From Chloroflexota bacterium (GTDB taxonomy: Bacteria > Chloroflexota > Anaerolineae > Anaerolineales > Villigracilaceae), in contig JAKAKJ010000080.1 in the NCBI GenBank assembly GCA_021824575.1, forward strand, positions 1-64,000: a stretch of DNA of 64,000 bases, read 5' to 3'. The notes below the pieces were generated by a model that was given only the letters and a program-made list of their open reading frames with translations, was not told the DNA's origin and did not search any database. Both the position numbers and the translations under genes were made by a program. Shown here piece after piece: positions 29,064 to 42,095 of this stretch (within the stretch, counting starts at the first letter, position 1; each line of letters starts with the position of its first letter).

Positions 29064-29990
29064 ATGCCACGCAAAGTCAAGATCATTTTGAATCCAATGG
29101 CAGACATGGGCGACGCATGGAAAGTCGCCAACGACCTGCGTCCGATCATTAACGAGTATGGCGGCGCGGACTGGAGCGGCACGGTCTATCCAACCCACGC
29201 CACCGAACTGGCGCGGCAGGCTGGAGACCAAGGCTACGAGATGATCATCGCAATCGGCGGCGACGGAACAGTCCATGAAATCATCAATGGAATCATGCAA
29301 TTACCCGAAAACAAAAGGCCCGTGCTCGGCGTGGTCCCCGTTGGCTCCGGCAATGACTTTGCCCATGCGATTGGCGTTCCAAAAGAATCGGATCGTGCGC
29401 TGGCACATGCGCTCGAAGGCGTGGCATCTCCAATTGATCTTGGCTCGATGACGGACGAGCACGGCCATAAGGAATATTTCGACAACACGCTTGGCATTGG
29501 TTTCGACGCGGTGGTCACCATCCGCTCGCACAAACTTCCCATCGTGCGCGGCTTTCTCATGTACCTCACCGCCGTGATCCAAACCATTTTGCTCAACCAT
29601 GATCCAGCGCTTGTGCAATTTGAAACCGAGAAGGAAAAATGGGAAGATCGGATTCTAATGACCACACTTTGCAACGGCGGGCGCGAAGGCGGCGGCTTTA
29701 TGTTGTCCCCGGATTCAAAAATGGACGATGGCATCATGGAATACGTGATGGTGCGAAAAGTTTCGCGCGCCATGATGTTCCGTCTCGTGCCTGAATTCAT
29801 GAAAGGCACGCATCGCCGCTTTGCAAAACAAATCCGAATGGATGCCTGCAAAAAACTCAGCATGATCTCCGACCGTCCGCTTTACATCCACGCCGATGGC
29901 GAGATTTACACCAGCTTTGGCAGCAACCTTCGCAAAGTTACTTTCGAAATTCTGCCGAACGCGATCAAAGTGGTTAAAGGCCTGCCCTGA
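29064..29990 (+). CDS. Diacylglycerol/sphingosine-kinase-family lipid kinase
   Basis: 308 residues, YegS/BmrU/DagK fold. Signatures: KIILNPMADMG near the N-terminus, the nucleotide motif IAIGGDGTVHEIINGI, VVPVGSGNDFAHAIG and the C-terminal ADGE. It should phosphorylate a membrane lipid such as diacylglycerol. The ATG at 29064 has a GGAG-type site upstream. The stop codon falls in a short sequence (CCCTGAGTTTGCCGAAGG at 29985-30002) of a kind seen as interspersed repeats elsewhere. Confidence 0.92.
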   Translation: MPRKVKIILNPMADMGDAWKVANDLRPIINEYGGADWSGTVYPTHATELARQAGDQGYEMIIAIGGDGTVHEIINGIMQLPENKRPVLGVVPVGSGNDFAHAIGVPKESDRALAHALEGVASPIDLGSMTDEHGHKEYFDNTLGIGFDAVVTIRSHKLPIVRGFLMYLTAVIQTILLNHDPALVQFETEKEKWEDRILMTTLCNGGREGGGFMLSPDSKMDDGIMEYVMVRKVSRAMMFRLVPEFMKGTHRRFAKQIRMDACKKLSMISDRPLYIHADGEIYTSFGSNLRKVTFEILPNAIKVVKGLP

Positions 29991-30063
29991 GTTTGCCGAA
30001 GGATCGAGAAGTTGCAGGTTGAAGGTTGGAAGGTTACAATACTTGCAGCCTTTAACCATCGAA

Positions 30064-31746
30064 ATGCCGGACCTTCTCCATTCCATCCTCAAACAAGATA
30101 TCGGACATCTTCGCATCGTTGCGGGATTATGGGGCATCGAACTCGATTCGAATGATGAAGATTCTGCGCGCGAAGAATTATCCGCTTCACTCCTCGACCC
30201 GGAACTGGTCGCTGAATTAATTGACTCGTTCACGCCTCAAGCGCGTGAAGCCCTCACCATGCTGACAAATGCCGAGGGCCGAATCCCGTGGGCAACTTTT
30301 GTCCGTCAATTTGGCGACATCCGCGAAATGGGCGCAGGCAAACGCGACCGCGAACGTCCGCACCTGCGTCCCGCATCCACGTCTGAATATTTGTTTTACC
30401 GCGCCCTGATCGCCCGGGCATTCTTCGACACTGATAAAGGTCCGCAGGAATTTGCATACATCCCCGATGATCTGTTTTCAATGATTCAATCCGGCAGGGG
30501 CGGATCGCGATCCGCCCCTACAAAAGATGAACCTTTGGGCCGCGGTGCAACGCCCGGCGAAAAGAATCACATCCTTCCCGCTGACGATCATATCCTCGAC
30601 GATGCCACAACTCTTTTGGCCGCGCTTCGTCTCGGAAAAGAAATTTCTCCTGATCCGAAATTATTATCTCTTTTACAAACCGCCGGATTGTTGAAGAAGA
30701 ATACTCCACAAGCCGAGGCCGTACGAAAATTTCTCGAAGCGTCCCGCGCGGACGCTTTGCAAATGTTGATTAACGCCTGGCAAAAATCCGAATCATTCAA
30801 CGAGCTTCGCTTAATTCCCAGCCTCATCTGCGAAGGCGAATGGAAAAATCAGCCGCAGGTCACGCGCGAATTTTTGTTGAATTTGCTCGATGCGATTCCT
30901 GCTGATAAATGGTGGAGTTTGATTCCGTTTGTGCGCGACATCAAACAAAAATTCCCGGATTTCCAGCGTCCAGCCGGAGATTATGATTCGTGGTTCATCA
31001 AACGCGAAACGGACGGCCAATACTTGCGCGGCTTTGCGCATTGGGATGAAGTGGATGGCGCGTTGATTCGATACTTCACCGATATTTTGCATTGGCTGGG
31101 AATGGTCGAACTGGCAAGTCCAGATGAAGGAAAAGATGTCACCGCTTTTCGATTGTTGAATATTAAAAATTTAAAGCCGAAAGTTGAAGATGCCAAATTA
31201 CATGTGACTTCACAGGGAAAAATCGTCGCGCCGAGGTTTGTGCCGCGGGCAGTGCGTTATCAAGTGGCGAGATTTTGCGAATGGGAAGATGATGGTCGAG
31301 TAGGCGGCGGGTCTCGATACGTTCACTCGCCTCGGTCGGAACTACTCGACCAGCGCCGCCATATCGAGACCAAACCTGATGAATATAAATATCACATCAC
31401 GCCGCATTCATTGACCAAAGCCACAGAACAAGGTTTGAAAGTCGAACAACTTTTAGCATTGCTGGCAAAACATGCCGATGCTGGAATTCCTCCGGTGCTG
31501 GTCAAAGCCCTCAAGCGCTGGGAGGTTAACGGAACCGAAGCGCGGGCTGAGACTCAAGTCGTTTTAAAGGTCAGCCGCCCCGAAGTCCTGGAAGAGCTGC
31601 GGAAATCGAAAGCGGCGAGATTCCTCGGCGAGCCGCTTGGTCCAACATCGGTCATCATCAAAGCAGGAGCGCAATCCAAGGTGATGGACGCGCTCGCAGA
31701 AATGGGTTTATTGGCAGAAGGAGATGTGAATGAACCGCCGTTATAA
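30064..31746 (+). CDS. Helicase-associated (Helicase_C_3/XPB N-terminal-like) domain protein with in-frame repeat insertions
   Basis: 560 residues, soluble. The C-terminal third (about 375-560: KLHVTSQGKIVAPRFVPRAVRYQVARF, in part, then HITPHSLTKATEQGLKVEQLLALLAKHA and KVMDALAEMGLLAE) matches the helicase-associated domain found N-terminal to XPB-type helicases. No ATPase motif is present, nor a helicase gene next to it. Two repeat elements are inserted without breaking the frame: a 24-bp palindrome at 30496-30519 (encoding GRGGSRSAPT) and a 78-bp element at 31294-31371. The ATG at 30064 is preferred; longer frames run into the lipid kinase gene. DNA binding is inferred. Confidence 0.75.
   Translation: MPDLLHSILKQDIGHLRIVAGLWGIELDSNDEDSAREELSASLLDPELVAELIDSFTPQAREALTMLTNAEGRIPWATFVRQFGDIREMGAGKRDRERPHLRPASTSEYLFYRALIARAFFDTDKGPQEFAYIPDDLFSMIQSGRGGSRSAPTKDEPLGRGATPGEKNHILPADDHILDDATTLLAALRLGKEISPDPKLLSLLQTAGLLKKNTPQAEAVRKFLEASRADALQMLINAWQKSESFNELRLIPSLICEGEWKNQPQVTREFLLNLLDAIPADKWWSLIPFVRDIKQKFPDFQRPAGDYDSWFIKRETDGQYLRGFAHWDEVDGALIRYFTDILHWLGMVELASPDEGKDVTAFRLLNIKNLKPKVEDAKLHVTSQGKIVAPRFVPRAVRYQVARFCEWEDDGRVGGGSRYVHSPRSELLDQRRHIETKPDEYKYHITPHSLTKATEQGLKVEQLLALLAKHADAGIPPVLVKALKRWEVNGTEARAETQVVLKVSRPEVLEELRKSKAARFLGEPLGPTSVIIKAGAQSKVMDALAEMGLLAEGDVNEPPL
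30496..30519. repeat. 24-bp AGGGGCG palindrome inside a coding region
   Basis: AGGGGCGGATCG is followed directly by its reverse complement. It shares its core with the elements at 36082-36110 and 38132-38159. It lies in frame in the helicase-associated gene, in a Gly/Ser/Arg-rich stretch that looks like a surface loop. Confidence 0.8.
31294..31371. repeat. REP-like element with GGTCTCGATA/CTACTCGACC ends, nested, inside a coding region
   Basis: The order is GGTCGAGTAG, GCGGCG, GGTCTCGATA, a 22-base middle, CTACTCGACC, CGCCGC, TATCGAGACC. Each of the three left blocks has its complement on the right. Thus one unit bounded by GGTCTCGATA and CTACTCGACC sits inside an oppositely oriented one. 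The 78 bases (26 codons) keep the helicase-associated gene open. Related units are at 45999-46072 and 62736-62772. Confidence 0.8.
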
Positions 31747-35849: not shown

Positions 35850-37841
35850 TTAACCTTGCATTCCCTCCCACTCCGCCAGCTTCTCATCCATCTCTTTTTG
35901 CACGCGTTCGTATTCTCTTCCAATCACCGCAACTTCATTCGGATTCACAAACAGACTTTCCAATTGCGCGCCTAAATTCGCCAATTCCGCTTCGAGCGCG
36001 GCGATGGTATTTTCGAGTTCCTGCATCTGCGCGATCTTTCGTCTTTCCTCTTTACTTGAAGAAGATATGCGTTGTTTTGGCGTAGGGGTGGAGCGACGCT
36101 CCGCCCCTACTGCATTACGCGCCGCTTCCTTCTCGCGTTCCTCTTTCATCTGTGAATACGTGCCTTTGAAAACCATCAGACGATTCTCATCGGCATTGAC
36201 TTCCCAGATTTGCATCGCCAGCGCGTCGACAAGATAACGATCATGCGTGACCAGCAAGATCGTGCCTTTATACGAATCCAGCACGGACTGCAAAACTTCC
36301 TGTGCGGGGATATCCAAATGATTCGTCGGCTCATCGAGCAGCAACAAATTCGTATCTTCCAACGCCAGCTTGGCTAATGCCAATCGTCCGCGTTCGCCGC
36401 CAGAGATCATGGAAACTTTCTTGAACACATCGTCGCCGGAGAAAAGGTATTTGCCAAGATAATCGCGTCCCTGATAGGGCAGCATGCCGGGCGAGGCGGT
36501 CAGGATTTCATCCAATACTGTTTTATCGGGATCGAGTCCCTCGTGCGCCTGCGCGAAATATCCGATGCGCAGACTCGCTCCCAGAATCACCTCGCCCGCC
36601 AACGGTTCGATCTGACCGAGAATCGTTTTGAGAAACGTTGTCTTGCCCGCGCCGTTCGGACCGATCAAGGCCGCGCACTCGGTGCGTCGCAATTCGATAT
36701 CCGGCACGCGGAAAAGCATCCTGCCCGGATAACCAATTTCAAGATCACGCGTGCGAATCACCAAGTCGCCGGAGCGGGCCGTCGAACGCAGATGCAGATG
36801 AAGGTCCGGTGTGACGCGCAGCGGCGGACGCAATGCGCGCACACGCCGCTCAGCTTCCTCCACGCTGAACGGGCTGATTGTTGTGTCCACATCCAACTGC
36901 GACCAATTCGTGCTGACCACCGCGTCCATGCCGACTTGTTCAATTGCCTGCACCACGCGCGTCAGCCGTCGCAGTTTGCCTTTGGCCTGCTGAATGTTCT
37001 GCCCTGAAATATTTTTCTTGATATATTCCACATCCTTCAACAACTTCTCGCGCTCCGATTCGAAAACTTCGGTGCGATGATTCCAGCGATTCTCACGCTC
37101 CTGCAAATAGGTGCTGTAATTGCCGCGGTAAAGTTCCGATCCGCTCACGGACATTTCGAGCAGCACATTGCAGGTATGATCGAGAAAATAACGATCATGG
37201 GAGACGATAAGCGCCGCGCCGTCCCACTGACTCAAATAACCTTCGAGCCATTCGATGGCTTCGATGTCGAGATGATTGGTCGGCTCATCGAGCAGTAACA
37301 AATCGGGATTCGAAAGAAGCAGCTTCGCGAGGAACGCGCGCGTGCGTTGTCCACCCGAAAGATGATCGAGCGGCATTTGAAAATCAGATTCATCGAAGCC
37401 GAGGCCCGTGAGAACCTGTTTGATTCGGACCTGATAGACATAACCGCCGCGCCGCTCGAAGTCTTCCTGCATCGGGCCATACCGGACCAAAGCCGGTTCC
37501 CGTTTAATTGGGTCGGACATTTCGGCTTCGAGCTTTTCCAGCTCGCGTTGACGCCGAATCAAATCGGCGAACTCCGACAGGCATGCATCCCAAATCGTTC
37601 CGTCGAGTTGGAAGTCTGCTTCCTGAGACAGATATCCGACGCGAAGATTCTTCGCGCGCGTAACCTTTCCCGCTGACGGTTCCTCCAAGCCGACAAGGAT
37701 TCGCAGCAATGTAGTCTTGCCAATTCCGTTCGGTCCGACGAGTGCAAAGCGCGCGCCTTTGACAATCGAAAACGAAACATCGCGGAAGATGTCTTCCGCG
37801 CCGAAGGATTTGGTGAGGGAATGTGCAGTGATGAGGGACAT
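35850..37841 (-). CDS. ABC-F family ATPase (Uup/EttA-like ribosome-associated)
   Basis: 663 residues, two ABC domains and no membrane part. Walker A GPNGIGKTT and GPNGAGKTT, signature LSGGQ and ISGGE, and two DEPTNHLD Walker B motifs; the inter-domain linker at about 245-310 is basic and helical as in the P-site tRNA-contacting segment. The tail (about 555-663) forms a coiled coil, as in Uup. ABC-F proteins act on ribosomes or give antibiotic resistance. Odd: a 29-bp palindrome at 36082-36110 lies in frame in the linker before the coiled coil (AVGAERRSTPT). The start at 37841 gives the normal family N-terminus. Confidence 0.9.
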   Translation of the reverse strand: MSLITAHSLTKSFGAEDIFRDVSFSIVKGARFALVGPNGIGKTTLLRILVGLEEPSAGKVTRAKNLRVGYLSQEADFQLDGTIWDACLSEFADLIRRQRELEKLEAEMSDPIKREPALVRYGPMQEDFERRGGYVYQVRIKQVLTGLGFDESDFQMPLDHLSGGQRTRAFLAKLLLSNPDLLLLDEPTNHLDIEAIEWLEGYLSQWDGAALIVSHDRYFLDHTCNVLLEMSVSGSELYRGNYSTYLQERENRWNHRTEVFESEREKLLKDVEYIKKNISGQNIQQAKGKLRRLTRVVQAIEQVGMDAVVSTNWSQLDVDTTISPFSVEEAERRVRALRPPLRVTPDLHLHLRSTARSGDLVIRTRDLEIGYPGRMLFRVPDIELRRTECAALIGPNGAGKTTFLKTILGQIEPLAGEVILGASLRIGYFAQAHEGLDPDKTVLDEILTASPGMLPYQGRDYLGKYLFSGDDVFKKVSMISGGERGRLALAKLALEDTNLLLLDEPTNHLDIPAQEVLQSVLDSYKGTILLVTHDRYLVDALAMQIWEVNADENRLMVFKGTYSQMKEEREKEAARNAVGAERRSTPTPKQRISSSSKEERRKIAQMQELENTIAALEAELANLGAQLESLFVNPNEVAVIGREYERVQKEMDEKLAEWEGMQG
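36082..36110. repeat. 29-bp AGGGGCG-family palindrome inside the ABC-F gene
   Basis: A 14-base arm, GTAGGGGTGGAGCG, one central A, and its complementary arm CGCTCCGCCCCTAC (one G-T pair). It sits in frame in a linker. Read in the gene direction it encodes AVGAERRSTPT, in the same phase as the AGAQHAAPLP encoded by the 38132-38159 copy. Confidence 0.8.
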
Positions 37842-37910
37842 GATAATTGCATGGCAAGGGCACAGCAAGACGAGCAAGCGTCAAAGGATTTTTGATTCTC
37901 CGCTGTGCCC

Positions 37911-38438
37911 TTACGAAAGATTTTCTTTATCCTCCGCCCAATGAGACGGGTTGGATTCGATGTACCGATGGATTCTATCCCATTCTTTTTCGTTTCGAAT
38001 CACGCGTTCGTAATAATTTCTTTGCCAGATATTTTTCGCGTTCAATTCACATCCAATGCGCCGCGTAACCGCGGATCTGTACGACCGAATAATGGCGCCC
38101 AATGAACCCGGTTTCACATTTGGTGGGGATGGCAGGGGCGCAGCATGCTGCGCCCCTGCGGTTGATAACGATTCGTTCTCATGAATCACAATAATCCCAT
38201 GCACATGATTCGGCATGACAATATATGCGCCCAATTCCGCATTTGGAAAATGTTCGGGGATGACATGCCAACATTCAGCCGCGATTCTGCCAAATTCATT
38301 CAACAACATTTCACCATTCGTGATTTCGCCAAACAAACATTTGCGTCGCTGCGCCACCATCGTGACGAAATACGCGCCCACGCAATAGTCGTATTCTTTC
38401 AAACGAATCGAACGGCGATGGAACTTCGTCTGAATCAA
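37911..38438 (-). CDS. REP-associated tyrosine transposase (RAYT, Y1/IS200-like)
   Basis: 175 residues of the HUH Y1 transposase family. Seen: the N-terminal YFVTMVAQRRKCLFG, the metal-binding HUH motif MPNHVHGIIVI, and the C-terminal block NIWQRNYYERVIRNEKEWDRIHRYIE-type region, in part, with the candidate catalytic Tyr, ending in NPSHW. RAYTs nick and may spread REP palindromes. The frame begins at a TTG that overlaps the proC stop (TTGA), so translation may be coupled. A 28-bp palindrome of the AGGGGCG family lies in frame within it (AGAQHAAPLP), between the HUH motif and the Tyr region, which might be a harmless loop. Confidence 0.9.
   Translation of the reverse strand: MIQTKFHRRSIRLKEYDYCVGAYFVTMVAQRRKCLFGEITNGEMLLNEFGRIAAECWHVIPEHFPNAELGAYIVMPNHVHGIIVIHENESLSTAGAQHAAPLPSPPNVKPGSLGAIIRSYRSAVTRRIGCELNAKNIWQRNYYERVIRNEKEWDRIHRYIESNPSHWAEDKENLS
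38132..38159. repeat. 28-bp perfect AGGGGCG palindrome inside the transposase gene
   Basis: GCAGGGGCGCAGCA followed directly by its reverse complement. Same family as the copies at 30496 and 36082. It is in frame and lies in the presumed loop between transposase motifs. Confidence 0.85.
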
Positions 38439-39286
38439 ATTTCATCGTCCTCATGCGCGTCTGCAATATGCGCAGGCTTTTCCTTTCCCAATTCCACTGA
38501 ACGCTGATACGCGGCCCAAACGGCGCGCGAGATCGCCGTGCGGAAACCAGCCTTCTCCAAATAATACAGCGCCTCAGCGGACGTCCCACCCGGCGACGTG
38601 ACCTGATTCCGCAGCGCGGCCGGATGTTTCTCGGCCTGCTCGTAAAAATCCGCGGAACCTTTAATCGTCTGTAAAACCAATTGCTCGGCAATCCGTCGCG
38701 GGAATCCCATGTGCACGCCTGCGTCAATCAATGCCTCGGTAAAAAGAAAAACATACGCAGGACCGGTGCCGGATAACGCCGTCGCCATGTCGAGATAACT
38801 CTCGTCTTCGACAAAGACTTCTGCACCCAACGCGCCCAAAATTTTCCTCGCCGTCTCGCGCTGTTCCTCGGACGTTTCATGCGAGGCCGTCCAAACTGTG
38901 ATGCCTTCGCCAATCTGTCCCGGCGTATTCGGCATCGAACGGACAACGGCTTTGTGTTTCAATCCCGCGCCAAGCTTCTTGATCGAAGCGCCAGCGACAA
39001 TCGAAAGCACCAAAGCGTCCGCACGGATGCTTTTGATCCCCTTCATCACATCACTCAGTCTTTGCGGTTTGACAGATAAAACAACGACGTCCGCCTCGTG
39101 AACTGCGGCAGCGTTATCTGTTGTTGATTGAATGCCGTACTTCCTATGCAATTCCTCGCCGCGTTCCGCGCGCGGCCCCGAAGCGATCAGGTTCGCGGGC
39201 TTTGCCAATTTCTGTCGGAGCAATCCGGCAATCATCGCTTCAGCCATAACTCCTGGTCCAATAAAAACGACTCGTTTATTAAGCAT
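38435..39286 (-). CDS. proC: Pyrroline-5-carboxylate reductase
   Basis: 283 residues; last step of proline synthesis, NAD(P)H-dependent. Seen: the N-terminal Rossmann motif FIGPGVMAEAMIAGL, VVLSVKPQ, the VRSMPNTPGQIGEGITVW region, and the C-terminal signature block ALSGTGPAYVFLFTEALIDAGVH-type, in part, with VTSPGGTSAEAL. Cytosolic, expected to form a decamer or dimer. Ribosome binding site GGAGGC and a minus-strand TATAAT at 39305-39310 give a clear start. The transposase gene overlaps its stop codon. Confidence 0.95.
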   Translation of the reverse strand: MLNKRVVFIGPGVMAEAMIAGLLRQKLAKPANLIASGPRAERGEELHRKYGIQSTTDNAAAVHEADVVVLSVKPQRLSDVMKGIKSIRADALVLSIVAGASIKKLGAGLKHKAVVRSMPNTPGQIGEGITVWTASHETSEEQRETARKILGALGAEVFVEDESYLDMATALSGTGPAYVFLFTEALIDAGVHMGFPRRIAEQLVLQTIKGSADFYEQAEKHPAALRNQVTSPGGTSAEALYYLEKAGFRTAISRAVWAAYQRSVELGKEKPAHIADAHEDDEI

Positions 39287-39430: not shown

Positions 39431-39452
39431 ATTGTCTCAGAAGGAATTATTC

Positions 39453-40730
39453 ATGGCTCGCTTGCAAACTCTTTCATCTTATGGCGGGAAACAAAAACAA
39501 CAACGGTCACGGAACGGTTGGAAAATCGTTCTGCTTTCCGGTACGTTGACAATCTTGTTTGCGCTTTTGTTTTTGCTGGCAATTGTCCCGGTAATTTCGC
39601 CGTCAACGGGCGCGGATGTTGCAGACTTACTGCGCTCCATCGTCGGACCTGCGCCGGTCGCGGCGCTGGAGAGCACATCGTACCATTTTCAAGATGTATT
39701 CAATCAGGTACGTTCACAACTCAGCGGCGGGCAGTCCGAGATTCAATGGTCAAGCCAGCCGCAAAGCAACACGGGCACGACCGCGATTCCTTCCACCGCA
39801 ACACCCACAGCGATTCCAAAAACTCCGCCGCCAGCTGCAGAGGTTCCGTTAATACAAAACATTCCAACTGCCGCGCCAACCGCCGCACCCGCGCCGGTTA
39901 ACAATGTCGTCGCTGATTCGCCTCAGATTGGCTGGCAGGCTTACGGCCCGGAAATGAACGGGCAGCCCATTATGGCGCGCGCCATGCAAATGTTGGATCC
40001 AACACGCTCATATACCGGCGTCGCGCTCGTCCGCATTGATCTTTCCAGACTTCAACTTCACATGATGCCGGGAAACATCGAGCCGTCTCATCCGTCGGGA
40101 ATCAATCAAGCCATCCCTGATCTTGGAATGATCCCTCCTGCCGATCAAAGCAGTTTGATCGCGGCCTTCAACGGCGGCTTCAAGGGCGTCCACGGCCGTT
40201 TTGGAATGATGGTCAATGACTTTACTTTGCTCCCGCCGATTGACGGGCTTGGAACGGCGGCAATTTATCAGGATGGTCACGTTGCGATTGGGACATGGGG
40301 AACGGATCTCACGCAGACACCCGACATGATCGCGTTTCGACAGAATTGTCCGCCGCTGATAGATGCGGGTCAGATCAACCCGGGGCTGTATCTCGACAAC
40401 CGCAAGGCATGGGGCTACACCGGCAATTCCGATGTTACGTGGCGTACCGGCTTGGGCATCACACAGGATGGCCGCTATTTGATTTACGCCGTCGGCAACG
40501 GGACATCCGCGGCGACGCTGGCTGAAGCGCTGCAAAACGCGGGCGCGTACAACGCCATGCAATTGGATATCAATCAATACTACGCGCACTTTTATACCTA
40601 CACACCAGCCAGCGATCCATCACAAGAATTCTCGATGACCGGCGAGCCGCTGCTGGCAGAGATGATCTACAACCCGCATTTGTATCTGACGCCCAACGTG
40701 CGCGATTTCTTTTATTTGACGTTGAAATAA
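39453..40730 (+). CDS. Membrane-anchored phosphodiester-glycosidase-like (NAGPA/DUF2233) protein, copy 1
   Basis: 425 residues. A basic N-terminus and one membrane segment (about 25-48), a short helical part, a Pro/Thr/Ala-rich linker (about 100-150), then a NAGPA-type domain: ALVRIDLSRLQLH, SLIAAFNGGFKGVHGRFGMM, WRTGLGITQDGRYLIYAVG, NAGAYNAMQLDIN. The bovine/human relative removes GlcNAc from a phosphodiester; the bacterial role is probably in wall glycopolymer metabolism, outside the cell. A tandem paralogue follows at 40863. The ATG at 39453 has AGAAGGAAT upstream; the TTG seven codons before is less likely. Confidence 0.85.
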   Translation: MARLQTLSSYGGKQKQQRSRNGWKIVLLSGTLTILFALLFLLAIVPVISPSTGADVADLLRSIVGPAPVAALESTSYHFQDVFNQVRSQLSGGQSEIQWSSQPQSNTGTTAIPSTATPTAIPKTPPPAAEVPLIQNIPTAAPTAAPAPVNNVVADSPQIGWQAYGPEMNGQPIMARAMQMLDPTRSYTGVALVRIDLSRLQLHMMPGNIEPSHPSGINQAIPDLGMIPPADQSSLIAAFNGGFKGVHGRFGMMVNDFTLLPPIDGLGTAAIYQDGHVAIGTWGTDLTQTPDMIAFRQNCPPLIDAGQINPGLYLDNRKAWGYTGNSDVTWRTGLGITQDGRYLIYAVGNGTSAATLAEALQNAGAYNAMQLDINQYYAHFYTYTPASDPSQEFSMTGEPLLAEMIYNPHLYLTPNVRDFFYLTLK

Positions 40731-40778: not shown

Positions 40779-40862
40779 TTCATGCAGGACAGGTAAGATG
40801 CGTTCATGCGCCCTTTGATGGAGAGCAGAGGGCTGATAAACAAGCGAAAAAGGAATTCATTC

Positions 40863-42095
40863 ATGAATCGACTCAGAGGTAAGACAAAGACACGTTCAAA
40901 CCGCGGGTGGGTATACGCGGGCATCTTTTCAATTTTTTCGTTTGCATCGTTGATCGGGGTCCTTGCCATCGTTCCGGCGGTTTCGCCATCCACAGGCGCG
41001 CAAGTCGCGGACATGATCCGGTCGGCAGCCGGGCCGCAGGTGACAGCAAACATCGAAAGCGTATCATTTTGGATTCAGGACAACATCAATCAATTGGCAT
41101 ATCAGGCCGACGGACAGAAACCCGGCATTACACTTGATAAACAACCTGTCGCGCAGCCGACTGTTCAAAGTACGCCTGTGTCACAACCCACACCGCAACC
41201 AACACAAACAACAAATCAATCAACTGTAGTCGCACAAAAACCCGTGTTCCAACGCGTCGCTCCCGCGCCAAGTACAAATGTAGTCACCGCGGATCCACAG
41301 ATTGGCTGGCAGGCTTACGGTCCAAACGTGAACGGGCAGCCAGCCATGGCACAGGCGTTATTGAACCTCGATCCAACGCGGCCTTATGCAGGTGTTGCGC
41401 TCGTACGCATTGATCTTTCGATGCTTCAGTTACACACGGAACCGGGGTTCCTGGAGCCATCACATGCGACGAATGTTGTTAATGCAATCCCGAATTTGGG
41501 AACCATTCCGCCCGCGGATATGAGTCACCTCATTGCCGCGTTCAACGGCGGGTTCAAAGCGGTTAACGGAAAATATGGAATGGTCGTTGACGGAACCACA
41601 CTTCTCACGCCTTGGCCGGGAATTGCAACGGTCGCAATCTATAAGGACGGACACGTTCAGATCGGCACGTGGGGACAGGATTTATTCCCTGGCGACCCGA
41701 ACATGGTTGCGCTGCGACAGAATTGTCCGCCCATTTTGGAAGCAGGACAAATTGATCCGCGCGTCTATGTTGATGATGCGTCCCTTTGGGGGAACACCAT
41801 CGGCAACCAGTCCATCACGTGGCGAACCGGACTGGGCATTACACAGGATGGCCGCTATTTGATCTACGCGGTGGGCAATGCCACATCCGTTTCCACTCTG
41901 GCTCAAGCATTGCAAGATGCGGGCGCCTATAATGCGATGCAGCTTGATATCAACAAGCATTATGCCCATTTCGTGACATACAAACCTTCTGGCAATCATC
42001 TAACAGCCGTCCAGCTTTTGGATCAAATGGAAAACGATCCGACGCTTTATCTTGTCGCACATTCAAGAGATTTCTTTTATTTGACAACGCGTTAG
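40863..42095 (+). CDS. Membrane-anchored phosphodiester-glycosidase-like (NAGPA/DUF2233) protein, copy 2
   Basis: 410 residues, the same layout as the gene before it: basic start, one membrane segment (about 17-40), Gln/Pro/Thr-rich linker, then the NAGPA-type domain with DPTRPYAGVALVRIDLS, LIAAFNGGFKAVNGKYGM, RTGLGITQDGRYLIYAVG and YNAMQLDIN. Even the membrane helix region (LAIVPAVSPSTGAQVADM against LAIVPVISPSTGADVADL) is alike, so it is a recent tandem duplication with a diverged linker. The start at 40863 follows AAAAAGGAATTC. A strong terminator ends the pair. Confidence 0.85.
   Translation: MNRLRGKTKTRSNRGWVYAGIFSIFSFASLIGVLAIVPAVSPSTGAQVADMIRSAAGPQVTANIESVSFWIQDNINQLAYQADGQKPGITLDKQPVAQPTVQSTPVSQPTPQPTQTTNQSTVVAQKPVFQRVAPAPSTNVVTADPQIGWQAYGPNVNGQPAMAQALLNLDPTRPYAGVALVRIDLSMLQLHTEPGFLEPSHATNVVNAIPNLGTIPPADMSHLIAAFNGGFKAVNGKYGMVVDGTTLLTPWPGIATVAIYKDGHVQIGTWGQDLFPGDPNMVALRQNCPPILEAGQIDPRVYVDDASLWGNTIGNQSITWRTGLGITQDGRYLIYAVGNATSVSTLAQALQDAGAYNAMQLDINKHYAHFVTYKPSGNHLTAVQLLDQMENDPTLYLVAHSRDFFYLTTR

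Follow-up and report, generated by a model that had tools for sequence, protein, structure and literature searches.

How RAYT transposases recognise and spread REP palindromes is an open question, and a RAYT gene carrying such a palindrome inside its own coding sequence bears on it. In the stretch of Chloroflexota DNA analysed here (64,000 nucleotides, referred to as the window), three near-perfect palindromes were read, all within 8 kb and each in frame in an ORF, namely a helicase-like, an ABC-F and a transposase ORF (Table 1). The palindromes had been located there in an earlier, sequence-only reading of the window, and this was confirmed. The arms which it named, AGGGGCG...CGCCCCT, were found as well, except in the ABC-F copy, whose left arm is AGGGGTG and has one mismatch. 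The same reading took the transposase for a RAYT that could have spread the element into both neighbouring genes. If the embedded palindrome is indeed the substrate of the enzyme, each gene of this kind would supply a labelled test substrate, and a swap of the tip could then ask directly what the RAYT recognises.

Table 1. Palindromes and genes at the studied locus, and further palindrome-bearing genes of the same genome (G000). Locations are positions in the window unless a contig is named.
Feature	Location	Strand	Remarks
Helicase-like ORF	29896-31746	+	Pfam Helicase_C_3; palindrome peptide GRGGSRSAPT in hypervariable linker
REP palindrome GCAGGGGCGGATCGCGATCCGCCCCTAC	30494-30521		14-bp arms, 1 mismatch; tip TCGCGA; inside helicase-like ORF
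ABC-F ORF	35850-37877	-	NCBIfam ribo_prot_ABC_F; palindrome peptide VGAERRSTPT in hypervariable linker
REP palindrome GTAGGGGTGGAGCGACGCTCCGCCCCTAC	36082-36110		one mismatch; tip GCGACGC; inside ABC-F ORF
RAYT / TnpA_REP-type Y1 HUH transposase ORF	37914..38438	-	TTG start, 175 aa
REP palindrome GCAGGGGCGCAGCATGCTGCGCCCCTGC	38132-38159		perfect; tip CATG; inside RAYT ORF
proC-like gene (P5CR)	38435..39286	-	directly upstream of RAYT
MoeA with in-frame REP palindrome	G000 C61:17629		Pfam
OMP decarboxylase (PyrF) with in-frame REP palindrome	G000 C89:19521		Pfam
GHMP kinase with in-frame REP palindrome	G000 C51:42102		Pfam
LUD/4Fe-4S protein with in-frame REP palindrome	G000 C56:48919		Pfam
MmgE/PrpD protein with in-frame REP palindrome	G000 C25:70888		Pfam

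The transposase ORF matches the Pfam family Y1_Tnp and, partially and in two separate stretches, NCBIfam NF047646 (scoring 62 bits, where the cut-off is 80). Its HUH motif comprises H78 and H80, WQ is at 138-139, and Y159 is the predicted catalytic tyrosine; H78, H80, Q139 and Y159 are invariant across 38 relatives. The Foldseek search with the AF2 model of the protein (pLDDT 87) gave as the best match 4er8, the TnpA_REP of E. coli with a REP hairpin (E 6.6e-8, TM 0.60-0.64), which shares the HUH, WQ and tyrosine regions with the window protein, although the sequence identity is about 22%. Both the motifs and the predicted fold support the identification of the window enzyme as a RAYT (TnpA_REP), a Y1 HUH single-strand endonuclease, as the sequence-only reading had supposed.

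This RAYT is probably of the kind known as subclass 2.4 or RAYT group 4, whose double-foot REPs are symmetrical. Quentin et al. (2018) reported in-frame REPs inside tnpA_REP genes, between HuH and Y, in this subclass (PMC6006769). The subclass, as described there, shares with our case an HUH-Y1 enzyme with the motifs NH[IFV]H (NHVH in the window RAYT) and WQ, palindromes in which a GTAG-like foot is mirrored by its complement on the opposite side, and a variable insertion between HUH and Y that holds the REP, here at residues 94-103. Meanwhile, the third motif is one position off, being YIESNP in the window RAYT and YIxNNP in the subclass, and the window RAYT comes from Chloroflexota, which are hardly sampled there. 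The association between tip and clade, and the occurrence of REPs in either open frame, both described below, are absent from the passages of that report consulted here.

The palindromes are members of a genome-wide family. The pattern GTAGGGGC-N{11,13}-GCCCCTAC had 38 exact copies in the own genome of the window (3.64 Mb, 98 contigs) against 0 for the reversed pattern, and the core pattern of the sequence-only reading had 22 matches against 2 for the control; on account of these differences, the family is far above chance. Using a covariance model with an open loop, at least about 70 places were found when the best 150 of 2635 candidates were scored. A map of the copies was drawn from the stretches around the matches, and 47 well-formed copies were placed on it, the majority being intergenic and about 10 lying in ORFs according to a crude call from codon usage. 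The ORFs are those of three RAYTs and of the helicase-like, ABC-F, MoeA, PyrF, LUD/4Fe-4S, MmgE/PrpD and GHMP kinase proteins, the last of which we read as a homoserine kinase; the host genes were confirmed by Pfam. This genome search, which the sequence-only reading had proposed as a check, bears out its view of the palindromes as RAYT-type repeats, i.e., a GTAG-foot family that is mostly intergenic and present in some gene loops. By our own estimate, about 0.2 triples of copies in 8 kb would be expected from about 47 copies in 3.6 Mb, and the clustering in the window is only mildly unusual; a further palindrome cluster is present on contig C89.

It should be noted that the search pattern itself prescribes the foot. 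The inner stem positions vary, yet they are 89-97% paired, and positions 9-13 are 94-97% paired (171 copies among the matches listed). Each REP can be pictured as one hairpin with the fixed foot GTAGGGGC...GCCCCTAC, a middle that varies freely yet is almost always paired, and a tip that would mark the subfamily. Selection, conversion between copies and hairpin-templated repair are candidate sources of the paired change in the mid-stem. The genomic family has the double-foot REP form GT[AG]G...C[TC]AC, and the copy embedded in the window RAYT itself reads GCAG...CTGC, its foot being GCAG and not GTAG.

This embedded palindrome encodes residues 94-103 (AGAQHAAPLP) and nearly coincides with a low-confidence loop of the structure model (96-103), flanked by the strand 78-85, which carries HUH, and the helix 113-132. 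A palindrome was found in the same loop (about 94 nt), which links the HUH strand to the tyrosine helix, in 66 of the 118 related RAYTs. The rest of the core (about 416 nt) contained a palindrome in 0 of 118 RAYTs, and codon-shuffled loops gave 0 palindromes. The self-containing copy had been regarded as the odd part of the locus; with 66 relatives having one, a copy unique to the window RAYT is ruled out. Since in-frame REPs of subclass 2.4 were reported in 2018 (PMC6006769), the arrangement of a gene with its own REP is already known and the window RAYT is one more case of it. In the loops of two RAYTs (L022 and L131), the palindrome-derived peptide is present in tandem repeats (GRSPLPGRSPLPGRSPLP; GRAPLPGRAPLP). 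The same loop has another foot, GTAGAGAC...GTCTCTAC, in a sister group of RAYTs (L105, L113, L117, L176, L177 and L178, some from Bacteroidota).

The copies inside host genes were compared with homologues. In the ABC-F and helicase-like proteins, the REP site is a linker of widely differing length and sequence, and the REP peptide is absent from most homologues (30 for each protein). The sequence-only reading had named the same peptide at the same place in homologues as the mark of an ancestral sequence; with the peptide missing from most of them, ancestry of the palindrome peptide in the host genes is ruled out. In MoeA, the same-genus relatives have a short loop where G000 has NTVGAERRSAPT, and in the sister species the loop reads NVVGSSRPGRQNVAPA, apparently a degenerate form of the palindrome. 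For three of the four host genes tested, a second genome has in the corresponding loop a palindrome that is independent of the one in G000, i.e., the helicase-like gene of G001 (peptide VGATHESPLQ, tip TCATGA), the ABC-F gene of G010 (RRGDVYVAPT, GTATAC) and the PyrF gene of G027 (VGAIHELPLR, TCATGA). For the helicase-like and ABC-F genes, the reading frame of the palindrome also differs from that in G000. The frame reading the TAG of GTAG is closed, and both other frames are used by in-gene REPs. Insertion polarity was seen in ABC-F, helicase, PyrF and MoeA.

As most homologues are without the copies and the sites are hypervariable, the host-gene copies are shown, at the level of sequence comparison, to be insertions in loops tolerating about 10 extra residues. 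The REP-bearing linkers of G000 are no longer than the linkers of G003 without a REP; simple addition of sequence is thus not supported, and the insertions would have to have been followed by deletion or replacement. The comparison between genomes likewise shows that REPs entered the same loops of conserved enzymes more than once, in different genomes, and such repeated independent entry seems to be new. The in-frame copies in several conserved genes agree with the earlier proposal that coding sequences are an accepted target, and they show that palindromic DNA has repeatedly been turned into protein sequence in loops of conserved enzymes. Intragenic REPs were described by Di Nocera et al. (2013) as GTAG-tagged palindromes in frame in coding genes (PMC3733652), but the RAYT genes of that work are described as flanked by REPs instead of containing them, and the host genes are others. 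The Rickettsia palindromic elements are also small palindromes in frame in unrelated proteins; however, they are CGTC-type or longer and have no known transposase (PMC3733652). The window palindromes are not members of that group, as their foot is of the GTAG type and one of them lies inside a RAYT gene.

The tips of the palindromes were then set against the RAYT types. The embedded tips in G000 are CATG (window), GGCC (contig C15) and GCGnCGC (contig C68). GCGnCGC is also the commonest tip class in this genome and includes the ABC-F copy. The tip of the helicase copy, TCGCGA, is that of a RAYT in G040 and prevails among the copies of that genome, and identical TCGCGA copies are present in G003 and G040 (all among the matches listed). 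None of the three RAYTs found in G000 has this tip. On the RAYT tree, which was built without the loop and is rough, its bootstrap not being settled, there are 25 changes in the four central palindrome bases, where shuffling gives 38-48, and the base beside the dyad changes 8 times against a shuffled mean of 27, the fourth base from the dyad (mid-stem) 24 times against 29, and the sixth 9 times against 8.5. Among the matches listed for 12 genomes, on average 34% of the REPs outside RAYT genes have the tip of a resident RAYT, against 18% when permuted (p = 0.0005, in a test that ignores kinship among the 12 genomes); by a weaker test on the same matches, 9 of the 12 genomes have at least one tip match against 6.6 expected (p = 0.07).

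By these counts, the tip of the embedded copy is shown to track the RAYT clade. A tip that follows both the RAYT phylogeny and the resident RAYT type, together with a mid-stem that turns over while its pairing is kept, seems to be new; the literature searched, which covered few subscription papers, yielded no description of group-4 tip specificity. These data suggest that the tip marks which RAYT each copy belongs to and that the two neighbouring copies belong to RAYTs other than that of the window.

The explanation that we hold to be probable as a whole joins a group-4 RAYT, REPs read by foot and tip, insertion into genes and an embedded cognate copy. TnpA_REP binds REPs in their single-stranded form and cuts next to them, with GTAG as the guide (PMC8266576). 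The group-4 enzyme would bind the single-stranded hairpin, read its foot and tip, nick beside GTAG and move REPs through single-stranded DNA. Loop bases count in group 3 and not in group 2 (PMC8266576); the REPs of E. coli TnpA_REP differ from ours in having a bulge, and their loop bases were not selected in SELEX (PMC8266576). Group 4 would recognise the foot together with the tip; biochemical work on this group was not found in the literature searched. The embedded copy would be the cognate substrate of its RAYT, retained or gained afresh so that the gene and its substrate are passed on jointly. The C68 RAYT may have spread the ABC-F copy, and the helicase copy may be due to a TCGCGA-type RAYT, none such having been found in G000. 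More tentatively, and leaning slightly against it ourselves, we propose that the embedded REP of group 4 is a self-carried cognate substrate whose tip is a specificity code read by the enzyme and co-diverging with the protein, and that, owing to its place inside the ORF, a RAYT transferred to a new genome can found a REP family of its own there.

The embedded palindrome might instead be a single ancestral insertion inherited with the RAYT gene, the link between tip and clade then reflecting shared ancestry and not specificity. The right arm common to the G000 and G003 orthologues and the agreement of the tips with the RAYT tree would fit this, but on that tree the presence of the palindrome changes 24 times and its reading frame 6 times. 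Besides, the tree signal is unequal within one element, strong at the tip and barely seen in the mid-stem, and the tips of resident RAYTs recur in REPs outside the RAYT genes; we regard a single ancestral insertion as unlikely. Still less probable, in our judgement, is that the palindromes inside genes are retained for a role as mRNA hairpins or as autoregulatory sites, e.g., for RAYT self-repression, and not as a mobile substrate. REPs have been proposed as RNA elements (PMC3733652), and the palindrome arms are near perfect even in strongly diverged RAYTs; however, the same element is found in genes that are unrelated and, for the most part, between genes, and its frame varies among RAYTs. 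A regulatory role on top of a mobile one would be compatible with the location and frame data.

The spread of both neighbouring copies by the window RAYT itself, put forward in the sequence-only reading, is in line with their proximity within 8 kb and the common foot sequence. We now consider it very improbable, since the ABC-F tip is of the C68 class and the helicase tip is TCGCGA, both differing from CATG. The C68 RAYT matches the former, G040 has identical TCGCGA copies together with a RAYT of that tip (matches listed), G003 has such copies as well, and the clustering is only mild. We give the least credence of all to spread by a non-RAYT agent, as may hold for the Rickettsia elements: among the matches listed, some REP tips in G010, G011 and G006 match no embedded copy found in the same genome, but the GTAG foot, the RAYT-embedded copies and the tip association all indicate RAYTs.

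Regarding the age of the arrangement, the orthologue comparison places the RAYT palindrome before the split between G000 and G003, because the orthologue in the sister species G003 (C55:27202-27684) has the same place and the same right arm. This orthologue is a pseudogene, out of frame owing to a 58-bp deletion that ends at the palindrome dyad. Short TGC homology is seen at the ends of the deletion, and an intact REP lies just downstream. The RAYT probably arrived before G000 and G003 separated, as proC and the ABC-F gene are close together with no RAYT between them in G002, G004 and G005. The window RAYT may be decaying, since its ORF opens with TTG and the expected ATG, in overlap with the stop of proC, does not share the frame of the RAYT domain. 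GCAG, the foot of its embedded copy, is among the GTAG mutants that were assayed with the S. maltophilia enzyme (PMC8266576). Elsewhere in the window, two adjacent and clearly related ORFs of about 430 aa (PQIGWQAYGPEMNGQP type) lie in tandem at 39432-40730 and 40806-42095 and are probably a duplication.
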